Under the pieces are notes generated by a model. That model did no database searches. It was not told the origin of the DNA and saw nothing but the letters and a program-made list of their open reading frames with translations. A program made the translations under genes and the position numbers. A stretch of DNA of 64,000 bases, from assembly GCA_018698675.1 (NCBI GenBank), contig JABIPA010000004.1, positions 1-64,000 on the forward strand. Direction: 5' to 3'. Numbering within the stretch: position 1 is the first letter of the stretch; each line of letters starts with the position of its first letter. This DNA is from a bacterium (GTDB lineage Bacteria > Margulisbacteria > Marinamargulisbacteria > JABIPA01). This document shows, in pieces, positions 1,048 to 8,948 of the stretch.

Positions 1048-1607
1048 GCTTAATCGCCTATCTCTTAGGCGCCATCCCTTTTGGACTACTCGTTTGCAAA
1101 CTTAAAGGACATGATCTTAGAAAAACAGGTTCTGGGAATATCGGTGCAACAAACGTCTATAGAGGACTTGGTTTTAAATATGCATTTCTCGTATTTTGTT
1201 TAGATTCTTTCAAAGGGTACCTTCCCGTTTATTTATCGTTTTTTCTTTCCGATCAACCCTATGTACATATTTCTATCGGATTCATATCTATTATTGGTCA
1301 TAGTTTAACTATTTTTGCAGGATTTAAAGGTGGAAAAGGAGCAGCTACTGGATTAGGTGTTTTACTCGCGCTGGCCCCAGACGTATTTATGATTCTTTTT
1401 GTTCTTGCAATTCTCCTTATATTTGGTACAAAATATGTGTCAGTAGCAACAATTTCATGTAGTGTCTTGGCACCCATATTATTGCTTATCTTAGATTACC
1501 CGGAAGTTTACGTGTTTTTTATAGGAATTATTTGCTTATTTATTATATGGAGACATAAGGCAAATATCGAGCGATTGTTAAAAGGACAGGAAAATAAAAT
1601 AAGATGA
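1023..1607 (+). CDS. plsY: acyl-phosphate:glycerol-3-phosphate acyltransferase
   Basis: PlsY transfers an acyl group from acyl-phosphate to the sn-1 position of glycerol 3-phosphate in the inner membrane, the first step of phospholipid synthesis. The 194 residues form several hydrophobic helices and carry the family loops GSGNIGATN (about 36-44) and GFKGGKGAATGLG (about 100-112), which bind substrate and phosphate. The start is a TTG at 1023 inside the end of lipA; no ATG lies near the conserved N terminus. It overlaps gpsA by ATGA, so the enzyme that makes glycerol 3-phosphate and the one that uses it are translationally coupled. Confidence 0.95.
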   Translation: MLKEIIGLGLIAYLLGAIPFGLLVCKLKGHDLRKTGSGNIGATNVYRGLGFKYAFLVFCLDSFKGYLPVYLSFFLSDQPYVHISIGFISIIGHSLTIFAGFKGGKGAATGLGVLLALAPDVFMILFVLAILLIFGTKYVSVATISCSVLAPILLLILDYPEVYVFFIGIICLFIIWRHKANIERLLKGQENKIR

Positions 1608-2608
1608 AAACAGTAGCCGTTATTGGATGCGGGGCTTGGGCCTCAACAGTTACTTGTCTCCTTGCCGAAAAAAATAGTCCTTCATTAAACAATACAACAA
1701 TTAAAATTTGGTGCCATGATAAGACTTTATCTGACCATATTGATCAATTTCATAAACACCCTCAATTTGACCATATTAGCTTTGACTCCGATATCGAAGC
1801 GACGCATGATCTTGACGAACTAATCGCAGAATCAAGTCATATCATATTAGGAGTTGCTTCACCTTTTCTTTCTATTTTAGAACAAATAAAAAAAAACTAT
1901 ACGAACCAACCGATACTCATTCTTACAAAAGGTGTCGTTGAAAATGGTCCCTCTATTTTCGTATCCGAAAACGTTAAGCATTATTTGGGCGACATTCCAT
2001 TTGCTACATTATCTGGTCCAAATTTGGCCACGGAAATTCAAGATAAAAAACCTGCGACTACAGTTATCTCATCTCCATATTTAAAAGTTGCTGAAGACTT
2101 TCAAAGCTTACTTTCCTGCCCACGGTTTCGTGTATATACATCCTTAGACCAAAAAGGAGTCGAAATAGGAGGCGTGCTAAAAAATAGTATTGCAGTTGCC
2201 TGTGGAATTTCTGAAGGCTTAAATTTAGGAAATAACTGTCGTTCATCATTAATCACACGTGGACTTCAAGAAATTATTAGATTTGGAACATTATTTGGTG
2301 GAGAAGAAGAAACCTTTTATGGGCTATCTGGAATGGGTGATTTAATCACAACGTGTTCGTCTAGTTCTAGTAGAAACTATCGATTAGGTTTTGCAATTGC
2401 GGAAGGAAAAACTATTTCTGAAGCTATCGATCTCTTGTCTCCTCAAGTTGCAGAAGGTTATAAAACGACTAAACTTATTCATAAAATTGCTGAAACTAAA
2501 TCTATTGAAATGCCTATTGTTTCTGAATTATACAAAATTTTGTATCACGATAAGCGACCAATTGATGCGTTAATGTCTCTAATGAGCAGACCTCTAAAAA
2601 GTGAGTAG
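1604..2608 (+). CDS. gpsA: glycerol-3-phosphate dehydrogenase [NAD(P)+]
   Basis: GpsA reduces dihydroxyacetone phosphate to sn-glycerol 3-phosphate, the substrate of PlsY encoded just upstream. The Rossmann motif GCGAWAS is at residues 8-14, and LTKG at 107-110 holds the substrate-binding lysine. The C-terminal half has the family block around GISEGLNLGNN and SLITRGLQEI. The 334-residue length is typical. ATG at 1604 overlaps the plsY stop (ATGA), and its own end overlaps the next gene by 8 bases, giving a four-gene chain lipA-plsY-gpsA-sugar transferase. Confidence 0.96.
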   Translation: MKTVAVIGCGAWASTVTCLLAEKNSPSLNNTTIKIWCHDKTLSDHIDQFHKHPQFDHISFDSDIEATHDLDELIAESSHIILGVASPFLSILEQIKKNYTNQPILILTKGVVENGPSIFVSENVKHYLGDIPFATLSGPNLATEIQDKKPATTVISSPYLKVAEDFQSLLSCPRFRVYTSLDQKGVEIGGVLKNSIAVACGISEGLNLGNNCRSSLITRGLQEIIRFGTLFGGEEETFYGLSGMGDLITTCSSSSSRNYRLGFAIAEGKTISEAIDLLSPQVAEGYKTTKLIHKIAETKSIEMPIVSELYKILYHDKRPIDALMSLMSRPLKSE

Positions 2609-4082
2609 ATCTAAAACATCACTTTTAATATTTTTAACCCGATTATTTTCTGATATATCAGTTATTCTATTTAGTATCGTTCTTGCTTATAGTTTAAAAT
2701 TTAAAGTTGGATGGATACTTTCGAATTACTTTCGACTTGATTGGGGAGAAATCTATTCGCATGCTCAGATTGAACCTTATTTAAAAAGTTCCGGCCTTTT
2801 AATTGGCATTTGGATTCTTACCTTTGTTTTCTTCGGTTTATACCGTTCAAGAGCGGGTCTTATGCCGGAAGCTGATGAGTGCTTATCTATTATAAAAGCA
2901 TCTACAATAAGTACCATACAAATAATGGCAATAACTTTAATTTACAAAGATTTACCCGAGTCGAGAGGTGTTTTAGTTTATACGTGGGCTCTTGGTATAA
3001 TACTCCTCTCCTTTTCGCGGCTAGCTATTTTAAAGTTTGAACATAATGTTTTTAAAAGAGGAAAAGGAACAAAACGCTCGGCAATTATGGGAAATGACCT
3101 GTTATCTCAAGATATAGCAGAAAAATTCTTTCTTTTTCCGACGCTTCGTTTTTTTTATATTGGCCACATTAATGATACACCTCCTGATCAACTCCATTTC
3201 CACCTAAAAAAAAGATATAACAATATTGGCCTTCCCAGCGACTACAAATCGATTCTTATAGAGAACAACATCAAAGTACTTTTTGTTACTAACTATACGA
3301 AAGAAAAAGAAACGAACACTCCAATTGAACAAAAAACAGGCCCGGATATTAGCGAAGTCGTAAAATTTTGTAAAAAAAATATGATTATGTGTTATGTCAT
3401 ACCTAGCGTATACGAATTTACAAACTCGCCTATATCTACCTTAGATTTTGATGGACTTTCCTTTATTCAGATCCTTTTACATACAAATTCCGGCTTCAAC
3501 CTAATAGGTAAACGAGTGTTTGACATTTTGTTCTCAGCAGTTATGTTGATACTTTCAAGCCCCATTTTTATTGGGGTCTATCTAATAATAAAAGTTGTAT
3601 CTCCAGGACCTGTTTTTTACCATCAAACCCGTTTAACAAAGGGCGGTAAATCATTCGAAATGATTAAATTTAGAACTATGATTCCGGATGCAGAAAGAGG
3701 ATCTGGTCCAGTAATGGTATCTGAAACTGATGAAAACCGATTCATTAAATATGGTCAATTTCTTAGAAAATCATCAATTGATGAACTTCCTCAGCTTTTA
3801 AATGTATTTAGAGGCGAGATGAGTATTGTAGGTCCTCGTCCAGAACGACCTCATTTTGTAGAAAAATTTTGTAAAGAAATCCCTGGTTTTGAGCAACGCA
3901 CAGACATGAAGGGAGGAATCACAGGATGGGCTCAAATCAATGGTCGTTCTGTTTTAACACGCCGTCCAGAACATAAACTCAAATACGATTTATACTATAT
4001 TTATCATTGGTCATTTTTATTCGATCTTAAAATACTGATCAAAACATTTTTTGTTGTTTTTAAACGGGAAGAAGCATACTAA
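2601..4082 (+). CDS. undecaprenyl-phosphate sugar phosphotransferase (polyprenyl glycosylphosphotransferase)
   Basis: This inner-membrane enzyme should start a surface polysaccharide by moving a sugar 1-phosphate from an NDP-sugar to undecaprenyl phosphate. The N-terminal half has about four hydrophobic segments (within residues 7-145), then a soluble middle domain. From about residue 299 comes the bacterial sugar transferase domain: a re-entrant helix (RVFDILFSAVML), then KFRTM, LRKSSIDELPQLLNV, SIVGPRPERP and GITGWAQINGR, all catalytic blocks of the WbaP/WecA-unrelated family (PF02397). The start is a GTG at 2601 inside gpsA. The sugar cannot be told from sequence. It probably serves the glycan genes at 14-46 kb, although it sits apart from them. 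Confidence 0.93.
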   Translation: MSRSKTSLLIFLTRLFSDISVILFSIVLAYSLKFKVGWILSNYFRLDWGEIYSHAQIEPYLKSSGLLIGIWILTFVFFGLYRSRAGLMPEADECLSIIKASTISTIQIMAITLIYKDLPESRGVLVYTWALGIILLSFSRLAILKFEHNVFKRGKGTKRSAIMGNDLLSQDIAEKFFLFPTLRFFYIGHINDTPPDQLHFHLKKRYNNIGLPSDYKSILIENNIKVLFVTNYTKEKETNTPIEQKTGPDISEVVKFCKKNMIMCYVIPSVYEFTNSPISTLDFDGLSFIQILLHTNSGFNLIGKRVFDILFSAVMLILSSPIFIGVYLIIKVVSPGPVFYHQTRLTKGGKSFEMIKFRTMIPDAERGSGPVMVSETDENRFIKYGQFLRKSSIDELPQLLNVFRGEMSIVGPRPERPHFVEKFCKEIPGFEQRTDMKGGITGWAQINGRSVLTRRPEHKLKYDLYYIYHWSFLFDLKILIKTFFVVFKREEAY

Positions 4083-4128: not shown

Positions 4129-5322
4129 ATGTCTAAATCCAATCAATATAAAACACTTACACTTGTTAACCATTCATCACATAAACTCATAATATTAGGC
4201 GGTACATTTGACCCTTTTCATAATGGTCACTTTTCTATCATTAAAGCAATAAAAGAGTATTTCCCTAATTCAAAAATATTATTAATACCTACTTATCAAT
4301 CTCCTTTTAAAAAAGAATCGATGCTTTCTGCAAGACAACGGCTACTTCTTTTAACAAAGTTATCTATAATCATCCCAAATTTGATAATCGACCCCTATGA
4401 AATAAACAAAGAAAAAGTTTCTTATTCAATCGACACCATTGCGTATATAAAAAATAAGTTCCCCTCTTTCGATTTGTATTTTTGTATGGGTGAAGATGCA
4501 GCACAATCATTTACAAAGTGGAAAAATTTTAAATCCATACTCGGTCTTACGACCTTATTAATAGTTCCAAGAACAAGTTCCCAATCTTCTAGAGTTCTCG
4601 AAAAACTAACTTACCCCCCTCAATCTGTTCTACTACCTATGACAAAAATAGATATTTCTTCTACAGAAATAAAAAGCAAAAACAGGCCGTTTACAAAGGA
4701 AACTTTTCAAAAATGGTTTCCTGAAACATTAATTAAAGAAGCAAAGATTCTTCTTAATACAGCCCCCATTATCGGACTTACTGGACAAGTAGGAACGGGT
4801 AAAACTGAAGCAACAACATTCCTATCTAAAACATTCGCTATTGAAATTATTGATCTGGATTTGATAGGACACTCTATATTGGAAGAAACTCCTACAATTA
4901 AAAACCTAGTTTCAACTTTTGGAGCAACTATTCTTGATGAAACAAACAAAATTTCAAGAACACATCTTGGAAAAATTGTTTTCTCAGACAAGCACAAATT
5001 AGTTCTTTTAAACAAAATCGTTCATCCCTTAATTTTAGAAAAAACACTAATTCTTCTTTCAAAACGTGATAAACCAACTATTATCGTAGGATCCCTTTTG
5101 CAAGAAATTGGAATTTTAGACTATTGTTCAAAAGTCGTATGTATAACAGGGAAATCAGATACTATAATTAAACATATTGGAGAAAAAAAATATAACAGAC
5201 GCCAATTTCAACAATCGGAAAAAACGCTTCTTCGTAACTCTGACCATACAATTTCAAATGACTATACAAAAAACTTTTATTCAAAATTAACTGAACTATT
5301 CAACTCATTGTTAGGTTTATGA
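4129..5322 (+). CDS. nadD-coaE: fused nicotinate-nucleotide adenylyltransferase / dephospho-CoA kinase
   Basis: One frame encodes two cofactor enzymes. Residues about 18-205 are NadD (adenylation of nicotinate mononucleotide): GGTFDPFHNGH at 24-34, a YSIDTI block, MGEDAAQSF with a following tryptophan, and ISSTEIK. These are NadD rather than CoaD signatures. Residues about 213-397 are CoaE (phosphorylation of dephospho-CoA): P-loop GLTGQVGTGKT near 215, the DLDLIGHSIL block, GKIVFSD and HPLI. I chose ATG 4129, after the stop of the previous gene; the frame is open upstream to a TTG at 4051, but that stretch overlaps the sugar transferase and matches nothing. The TGA abuts the birA stop on the other strand. 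Confidence 0.9.
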   Translation: MSKSNQYKTLTLVNHSSHKLIILGGTFDPFHNGHFSIIKAIKEYFPNSKILLIPTYQSPFKKESMLSARQRLLLLTKLSIIIPNLIIDPYEINKEKVSYSIDTIAYIKNKFPSFDLYFCMGEDAAQSFTKWKNFKSILGLTTLLIVPRTSSQSSRVLEKLTYPPQSVLLPMTKIDISSTEIKSKNRPFTKETFQKWFPETLIKEAKILLNTAPIIGLTGQVGTGKTEATTFLSKTFAIEIIDLDLIGHSILEETPTIKNLVSTFGATILDETNKISRTHLGKIVFSDKHKLVLLNKIVHPLILEKTLILLSKRDKPTIIVGSLLQEIGILDYCSKVVCITGKSDTIIKHIGEKKYNRRQFQQSEKTLLRNSDHTISNDYTKNFYSKLTELFNSLLGL

Positions 5323-6055: not shown

Positions 6056-7333
6056 TTGAAAAATCAAAAAGATACGAAACCAGAATCTAAGCAATTGAAT
6101 ACAAAAAAAATAAAATCATTAGAAATTGATTTTGAAAATAAAGGCGTAGAACTTCTCGAAAAAGGAAAATCGTTCTTAAAAGCCCATGATTATATTTTTA
6201 CCAAAGAAAAACTTCTTGGTTCTGTCGACTACTTTAAAAAAGCTCTAAACGATAAACCTCAAAGCAAAATTTCAAGGGAAGGTCTAATGGAAGCATGGGA
6301 GTGCCTAAGTACACTACATCCTCTTTCTCCAAAAACACATTCAAGCTTAAATGGTAAAAATGGACATCACAAAGGCCTTTCTACTAATGTCTTGTCAAAA
6401 AAACTTAGGAATATTTTTATAGACAATTTAATTGAAATTGAATGGAAAAAACAATCCCATGGTAAATTTGGTCCATCTAAACCAAATACACTAAGTTGGA
6501 AAGAGTTTTATTTAATTAATGAAAAAGAATTAAATGAATTAGAGTCAATTACAGATAAACTTTGTTGGGCAGTTGAAAAAGGCCATGAGAAGCTAGTCCA
6601 ATACTATGTCGAAAATGAAAAAGCAGATGTTAACATCCAAAACAAAAATGGGGATTATATTTTGCAAGTTGCAATCGCTAAAAAATATCAATTAATATTT
6701 AAAGTCCTTTTGGAATCTGGGGCGAGCGTTACTAATAAAAGTAAAAAAGGATGGGCTGCTATCCATTATGCCGTAAAAAGCCAAGTCCTTTCTATCTTTG
6801 ATAAAGTTATCGAAGAAGGTGGAGATCCGAAGATTTTAGATAGCGAAAAAAATTCTACTCTTCATATTGCTGCCTTTCTTGGAAACCTAGAAATTTCAAA
6901 AAAACTCATCTCGTTAGGAGTCAATATTAATTCTAAAAACAACGGAAATATTACAGCCCTTCATCTTGCAATCAATCATGGAGGTTATATGTTAGCCTCC
7001 TATTTACTAGAAAATGGAGCATCTGTCGTAGATAAAGATAAATTTGACCAAACTATTATCCATTGGTCAGTAGTGTCCAATTCACGAACAATTCTTAAAC
7101 AAGTTCTTGAAAAAACAAATGAAGGCATTAATCAAATTGACGTATTTGGACGGTCACCCTTACATTGGGCAGCCCAAAAAGGAGATTTGGATGTTGTATC
7201 TCTTCTAGTTGAGCGTGGAGCGAAAATTAATATTAAAGATAAATACGAACAAACGGCATTATTAATTGCAGCATTTTATGGCCATCCATCTATCGTTACT
7301 TACCTATTTAACCGTGGTGGAAGCATAGATTAA
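6056..7333 (+). CDS. ankyrin-repeat protein
   Basis: The 425-residue protein has a Lys-rich N-terminal part (about 1-150, with a helical segment around SVDYFKKALNDKP that resembles a TPR helix) and about eight ankyrin repeats from residue about 165 to the end. Clear consensus pieces are NSTLHIAAFLGNLEISKKL, ITALHLAINHGG and SPLHWAAQKGDLDVVSLLV. Ankyrin repeats bind proteins; the target is unknown. There is no signal peptide or membrane segment. The start is a TTG at 6056. An ATG at 6039 would be in frame if the 7-A run at 6049-6055 had one more A, so the start is uncertain. Confidence 0.82.
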   Translation: MKNQKDTKPESKQLNTKKIKSLEIDFENKGVELLEKGKSFLKAHDYIFTKEKLLGSVDYFKKALNDKPQSKISREGLMEAWECLSTLHPLSPKTHSSLNGKNGHHKGLSTNVLSKKLRNIFIDNLIEIEWKKQSHGKFGPSKPNTLSWKEFYLINEKELNELESITDKLCWAVEKGHEKLVQYYVENEKADVNIQNKNGDYILQVAIAKKYQLIFKVLLESGASVTNKSKKGWAAIHYAVKSQVLSIFDKVIEEGGDPKILDSEKNSTLHIAAFLGNLEISKKLISLGVNINSKNNGNITALHLAINHGGYMLASYLLENGASVVDKDKFDQTIIHWSVVSNSRTILKQVLEKTNEGINQIDVFGRSPLHWAAQKGDLDVVSLLVERGAKINIKDKYEQTALLIAAFYGHPSIVTYLFNRGGSID

Positions 7334-7970: not shown

Positions 7971-8948
7971 GTGCCTCACAACAGAAAAGAGTTCCCTTCA
8001 TCGGTCATAGAAGACTGTTTAATAAAAAATTATTCTTGTTCAGAATTAATCGAAATCTTAAATTATCCTGCCACAGAAAGCAGTATTATCGATTATCTAT
8101 GTGAAATAAAAAAACACCAAATTCAGGATGCGCTCTGCGATCTAGTCAATCACTTTTTGTCTCAAGGACATGATTTACAAAATGTGAAAATTGAGAATGC
8201 CTCTCTTTTATATTGGGCATGTTTTTTCGACTCTCCAAATGCAATCAGTCTTTTGGAAGAAAATCAATTTAACCTACATATTGATTTAGGTATGGAAGAA
8301 TTAAACGAATACGAGGAAATGACCTCAAGACAGTCAAGTTTTTATATTGCTGTCGTAAAAAATTCATTGAATTCACTTACTAAATTAGGAGAACTTGGCT
8401 GTCGTTTTAATGATGACATAGGACATGAAAACTATGACGACTCATTAAATTTATCAGAACGAATGTCCAGTTTTTATTGCGCGATTCAAAAAAATGCCAG
8501 TGAAATAGTAACAATCTTTTTAAAATACGGATATGATTTCAATACTGATTTCGGAGAAGAAAAATATGATTCTGGAGAAATAAGTGTAAAGTATCCATTC
8601 TTATATACATGTGTAGAAAATAAATCAAAAGAAGCTCTGCAAGCCGTGCTACCTTTTAATTACAAACTAGAATCAAACAAACATATTGAATATTTTGACG
8701 AGTATGGAGAGAAAAAAGGAACTTATTCCGTATTATTTGAATTTATTCAGAAAAGTTCTGTAGAAAATGTTCGGTTTTTAGGAGAAACAAATTATAACTT
8801 TACTGATGATGTCTGTATCGAGGACTATACTGAAGAGCAAACTCAGCAACTTAAATTCTCACTTTATTCCCAGCGAAATCACTCCACTGAAATGAAAGAA
8901 CTTTTTAAGAAGTATGCTTCAAACCGTCTTTGTGTAACAGCTCCATAA
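7971..8948 (+). CDS. protein of five tandem 43-44 residue ankyrin-like repeats (probably 3' part of a broken gene)
   Basis: From GTG 7971 this frame gives 325 residues; the same frame is open back to 7878. Residues about 77-305 form five tandem units of 42-44 residues, each starting like an ankyrin helix pair (SSFYIAVVKN, SSFYCAIQKN, FLYTCVENKS, LFEFIQKSS), then a turn of the type YxFNxDxG, then an acidic loop with ExYD. The units look like ankyrin repeats lengthened by about ten residues. I do not recognise a named family. No Shine-Dalgarno precedes the GTG, which supports the view that the true start is at 7511. It follows the ankyrin gene at 6056. Confidence 0.6.
   Translation: MPHNRKEFPSSVIEDCLIKNYSCSELIEILNYPATESSIIDYLCEIKKHQIQDALCDLVNHFLSQGHDLQNVKIENASLLYWACFFDSPNAISLLEENQFNLHIDLGMEELNEYEEMTSRQSSFYIAVVKNSLNSLTKLGELGCRFNDDIGHENYDDSLNLSERMSSFYCAIQKNASEIVTIFLKYGYDFNTDFGEEKYDSGEISVKYPFLYTCVENKSKEALQAVLPFNYKLESNKHIEYFDEYGEKKGTYSVLFEFIQKSSVENVRFLGETNYNFTDDVCIEDYTEEQTQQLKFSLYSQRNHSTEMKELFKKYASNRLCVTAP

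Follow-up and report, generated by a model that had tools for sequence, protein, structure and literature searches.

The locus raises the question of whether a single polypeptide in a little-known marine bacterium of the Ca. Marinamargulisbacteria carries both NadD and CoaE and, if so, whether both halves are active enzymes. The window (the whole stretch of DNA analysed, 64,000 nucleotides long) comes from a genome of 2.49 Mb in 74 contigs that is 91% complete (G000). Its nadD-coaE open reading frame occupies positions 4129-5322 of the plus strand, runs from ATG to TGA and encodes 397 residues; the five remaining frames over this interval hold 15-38 stops apiece. As the original prediction proposed, NadD and CoaE lie in one polypeptide, in a single frame and with both domains above curated cut-offs, and the motifs that it quoted (GGTFDPFHNGH, YSIDTI, ISSTEIK and a P-loop, which reads GQVGTGKT) are all found in the sequence. 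The gene and its N-terminal part comprise the following features.

4129..5322, plus strand: fused nadD-coaE gene, 397 aa (open reading frame, Pfam and NCBIfam matches)
4192..4677, plus strand: NadD (nicotinate-nucleotide adenylyltransferase) domain, residues 22-183 (PF01467, TIGR00482; PDB 5db4, 4ymi; fold 3e27, 8aih)
4219..4230, plus strand: HxGH nucleotide-binding motif, H31-N-G-H34 (sequence)
4678..4767, plus strand: NadD C-terminal helices and linker, residues 184-213 (no in-frame ATG, GTG or TTG; AlphaFold model)

Several lines of sequence evidence confirm that the N-terminal domain belongs to the NadD family. Residues 22-183 match the Pfam CTP_transf_like family (PF01467, E 1.5e-22), the NadD model TIGR00482 gives 126.6 bits against a cut-off of 112.45, and the ISST.(I/L)(K/R) motif of NadD is present as ISSTEIK. 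H31, G33, H34, S177 and T179 are invariant across the five full fusions described below. CoaD identity of this domain was considered and is excluded: the fused protein scores 22.9 bits with the CoaD model TIGR01510, far below the cut-off of 103.3, and a true coaD is encoded elsewhere in the genome (194.8 bits with the same model, contig C21). The original prediction of NadD rather than CoaD is therefore borne out.

Homology of the second half to CoaE, also predicted, is not in doubt on sequence grounds, since residues 214-362 match Pfam CoaE (PF01121) with E 2.5e-23 and 83.1 bits against a cut-off of 27, and TIGR00152 gives 95.2 bits against 65.55. An AlphaFold model built from an alignment of 45 sequences from the class and phylum has two domains (mean pLDDT 92, pTM 0.86), and in Foldseek its halves match NadD (3e27, 8aih) and dephospho-CoA kinase (DPCK; 2grj, TMt 0.87, and mouse CoA synthase 2f6r). 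The features of this half are as follows.

4768..5319, plus strand: CoaE (dephospho-CoA kinase) domain, residues 214-397 (PF01121, TIGR00152, PDB 2grj, fold TMt 0.87)
4783..4806, plus strand: P-loop GQVGTGKT, residues 219-226 (sequence)
4858..4860, plus strand: D244 of the DLD motif, equivalent of catalytic Asp32 of Mycobacterium tuberculosis CoaE (alignment)
5173..5175, plus strand: H349, where the essential lid arginine R140 sits (alignment; PMC3019153 for essentiality)
5176..5208, plus strand: shortened lid, residues 350-360, 11 residues (alignment)

Could the fusion be an assembly or frameshift artefact, or be made as two proteins through internal initiation? Only a small frame change separates the split genes of relatives from the fused form, and one of the fusions (G018) sits at a contig end. 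Against this, a codon scan finds no ATG, GTG or TTG between residues 171 and 245, which makes a clean separate CoaE unlikely, and an internal start of that kind was ruled out on this ground. Moreover, the fusion occurs whole and in one frame in five genomes from different families of the class, so neither chance nor a one-off misassembly accounts for it, and the junctions vary among the fusions, some of which lack the C-terminal end of NadD. We regard an artefact as highly improbable. The two results named beforehand as counting against the fusion, a CoaD identity and an internal start, were both absent from the sequence.

Among 27 genomes of the class (G000-G026), the fusion is whole in five (G000, G002, G014, G020 and G025) and cut by a contig end in two (G018 and G024). 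The two genes are adjacent but separate in eight (G004, G006, G007, G009, G010, G015, G021 and G022) and lie on separate contigs in six (G003, G005, G011, G012, G016 and G019). CoaE alone was seen in G017 and G026, and neither gene was seen in G001, G008, G013 and G023. G001 is the only genome of the same genus, and its contigs end on either side of the locus, so that the absence there reflects an assembly gap. The fusion was not seen in the 47 remaining genomes of the phylum, in 399 Bacillota at E 1e-38 or in 399 Pseudomonadota at E 1e-46, searched with a query that detects the fusion within the class, and phage records gave single-domain matches only. No NCBIfam model spans both halves. The earlier remark that no described NadD-CoaE enzyme was known to its author agrees with our searches of the open literature, in which no description of such a fusion was found, and the domain architecture is apparently undescribed. 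Two of the full fusions depart from the two-domain form. In G020, the fused frame stops early, after ADKTIF, at two consecutive stops (L117 3661), and the C-terminal end of CoaE is lost. In G002, a third domain, Lnt (apolipoprotein N-acyltransferase; PF20154 and PF00795), follows in frame.

L115 3038-5830, plus strand: triple fusion NadD-CoaE-Lnt of G002, 922 aa

The split relatives suggest that co-expression of nadD and coaE preceded their fusion. The stop codon of nadD overlaps the start of coaE as ATGA in G004, G007, G009, G010 and G021 and as GTGA in G006, which implies translational coupling, and the two genes nearly touch in G015 and G022. Such neighbouring genes would fuse through a small frame change at the overlapping junction. 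SCGC AG-410-N11 (L037/L165), a member of the same class, has the same nadD-coaE order and a short-lid CoaE, but there the two are separate proteins whose stop and start overlap as ATGA. G021 gives the same matches as L037, which puts the window in this class. The NadD C-terminal end is lost in G014 and G025 and retained in G002 and G024. In a concatenated tree, G000 and G002 carry sister copies of the fused gene (95/96). The seven fusions fail to group as a single clade (p-AU 2.9e-5) because the fused G018 is sister of the split G015 (100/100). A single origin is thus rejected when G018 is included; once G018 is left out, the test does not reject a single clade of fusions (p-AU 0.157). The fusion probably arose more than once, but this is not secure, given that the evidence for fusion in G018 comes from the end of a contig. 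The coexistence of fused and overlapping split forms in one class allows the steps of a gene fusion to be followed.

The other NAD and CoA genes of the genome bear on what the fusion does. The original prediction suggested looking for separate nadD, coaD and coaE genes; coaD indeed stands apart, and the fusion is both the sole NadD and the sole CoaE match. PF01467 has three matches in the genome, namely the fusion, the coaD on C21 and an rfaE2-like gene on C31 that adjoins an rfaE1-like gene (both named by sight), and Pfam profile searches of this 91% complete genome gave no second NadD-like or CoaE match; another copy of either could sit in a gap. CoaBC was found, and the archaeal-type DPCK (PF04019) is absent across the class genomes, so the pathway should include a DPCK, for which the fusion is the only candidate found.

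The original prediction described CoaE with an intact P-loop. The P-loop stands, and G219, G222, G224 and K225 within it are invariant across the five full fusions. Overlooked was that the lid is shortened and that its essential arginine is a histidine. In M. tuberculosis CoaE, mutagenesis showed that Lys14, Asp32 and Arg140 are critical; R140 is reported to be strictly conserved and essential, its replacement by alanine abolishing activity and Arg140Lys crippling it (PMC3019153). In the fused protein, K225, D244 and L323, the equivalents of Lys14, Asp32 and the DCoA-binding Leu114, are kept, as is the HP motif, and H349 takes the place of R140. From the R140 position to the conserved Gln, the lid of CoaE in this class measures 10-11 residues, compared with 17-18 in Escherichia coli and the phylum's other classes. 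Of 20 class members aligned, 13 have lost R140, with H, K, Q, N, I, L or Y in its place, and the other seven, G020 and G025 among them, retain it alongside an equally short lid; Lys, Asp, His and Gln are retained at their positions in all 20. Fused, overlapping and unlinked members all show the loss, which hence is not a consequence of fusion. The class CoaE sequences form a single clade (support 100/97) once G003 is set aside, whose CoaE has a long lid and falls outside. Among solved structures, the CoaE half is closest to the Thermotoga maritima dephospho-CoA kinase TM1387 (2grj), whose lid appears in the alignment to be just as short, which gives the short lid a precedent; it differs in being solved as a stand-alone DPCK and in keeping, as read from the alignment, the arginine that corresponds to R140.

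We favor the hypothesis, at a probability of about 0.72, that the fusion of neighboring nadD and coaE genes has yielded a two-domain enzyme with both activities working, and this preference follows from the fusion being the only DPCK candidate. The protein is most likely a bifunctional nicotinate mononucleotide (NaMN) adenylyltransferase and dephospho-CoA kinase. The N-terminal domain would convert ATP and nicotinate mononucleotide to deamido-NAD, and the C-terminal domain would phosphorylate dephospho-CoA to CoA, with the shortened lid supporting catalysis without R140. H349 at the R140 position weakens the sequence-based case for DPCK activity, and a different reading is that the NadD half works while the CoaE half, its kinase activity lost or weakened, acts as a partner that senses nucleotides or CoA, an unrecognised kinase completing CoA. 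The shortened lid and the replacement of R140 in most of the class are consistent with such decay, and the PLLFE-type motif is altered too, although R140-retaining classes elsewhere in the phylum share its altered Pro. However, the P-loop Lys, the Asp32 equivalent, the His and the Gln are retained class-wide as in an active kinase, no second DPCK candidate was found, seven members combine R140 with a short lid, and the T. maritima kinase is also short-lidded. We therefore consider a degenerate kinase unlikely. Because the lid arginine held to be essential is lost in the sole CoaE found in these genomes, a textbook catalytic claim becomes testable.

A further reading concerns NADP. NAD_kinase_C (PF20143) was detected in one of the 27 class genomes, G003, with a profile that, among 14 known genomes used as a control, failed to score in two (Thermus and Deinobacterium), so a divergent NAD kinase is possible in the class. 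In G000, phmmer and a home-made profile revealed no convincing NAD kinase in the 1.68 of 2.49 Mb (67%) that was searched. The apparent lack of NAD kinase is only a lead, which raises the question of how the class makes NADP. Besides or in place of dephospho-CoA, the CoaE-like domain could phosphorylate NAD or deamido-NAD on the adenosine ribose and so replace the missing kinase. In keeping with this, the one genome with a PF20143 match is the one with a long-lid CoaE, the more sensitive search of G000 was negative, and the CoaE-like domain is repeatedly linked to NadD. On the other hand, PF20143 also misses the two control genomes named above, the more sensitive profile covered two thirds of G000, the CoaE-like domain is the only DPCK candidate as well, and several genomes lacking a detected NAD kinase have CoaE unlinked to NadD. 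Replacement of NAD kinase by this domain is very unlikely in our estimation. The specific form in which the short-lid, NadD-linked CoaE is a dual-purpose ribose kinase making both CoA and NADP, in place of the undetected NAD kinase, has a slimmer chance still; if it were true, the fusion would be an enzyme finishing both cofactors.

Under the favored hypothesis of a bifunctional enzyme, the architecture would tie adenylylation in the NAD pathway to the final step in making CoA. Neither reaction depends on the other, and ATP is all that they have in common, so channelling of an intermediate is not expected. The suggestion that the fusion couples control of the NAD and CoA pools is unproven: there is no shared intermediate, and co-expression appears to be the earlier state. 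Most likely, joining the domains fixes their stoichiometry and their co-expression, the latter as the overlapping genes of relatives do.

The fusion can be set beside known systems of related composition. The animal CoaD-CoaE fusion COASY likewise places a nucleotidyltransferase domain before a CoaE domain in one chain, and the mouse CoA synthase structure 2f6r is among the sequence and fold matches of the fused protein. Unlike COASY, whose first domain is a phosphopantetheine adenylyltransferase and which carries out consecutive steps of one pathway through a shared intermediate, the Marinamargulisbacteria fusion has NadD first and a separate coaD, consistent with its low TIGR01510 score. PRK07152 / NF005519 also joins an N-terminal NadD to an extra domain, which is C-terminal and which we take to be an HD domain. 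In the fusion the partner is CoaE, and only the NadD half matches this model (136.9 against a cut-off of 315). PRK03333 / NF002879 resembles the fusion in having CoaE with an added domain, presumably one other than NadD, and the fused protein scores 63.4 against its cut-off of 215.

In several relatives, nadD-coaE comes after gpsA-like and sugar-transferase genes, which in the window are the following.

1604..2608, plus strand: gpsA-type gene (named by sight), in the same conserved block (open reading frame list, relatives)
2601..4082, plus strand: sugar-transferase gene (named by sight), upstream, adjoining nadD-coaE in several relatives

Near the fusion, the window also holds ankyrin-repeat-like open reading frames at 6056-7333 and 7971-8948, and in G018 a frame similar by sight directly follows nadD-coaE (L119 792-2039). 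Other members of the phylum encode long proteins with CoaE and CTP_transf-like parts (L153 3-2021, minus strand; L154 1551-3584, minus strand; L155 945-2864, plus strand), of which L154 has an added metallo-beta-lactamase domain, whereas L153 and L155 have stretches that by sight are HD-like. In G034, NadD is in frame with a part that looks PurL-like by sight (963 aa, L156 1006-3894, plus strand), and G046 has a frame of similar length. Masked bases (4000 N in 12 kb) probably account for an open frame in G011 that spans 23,367 aa. In G000 itself, an open frame roughly 10,000 residues long, surface-protein-like by sight, lies at about 70000-100000 of contig C40 (L263-L264).
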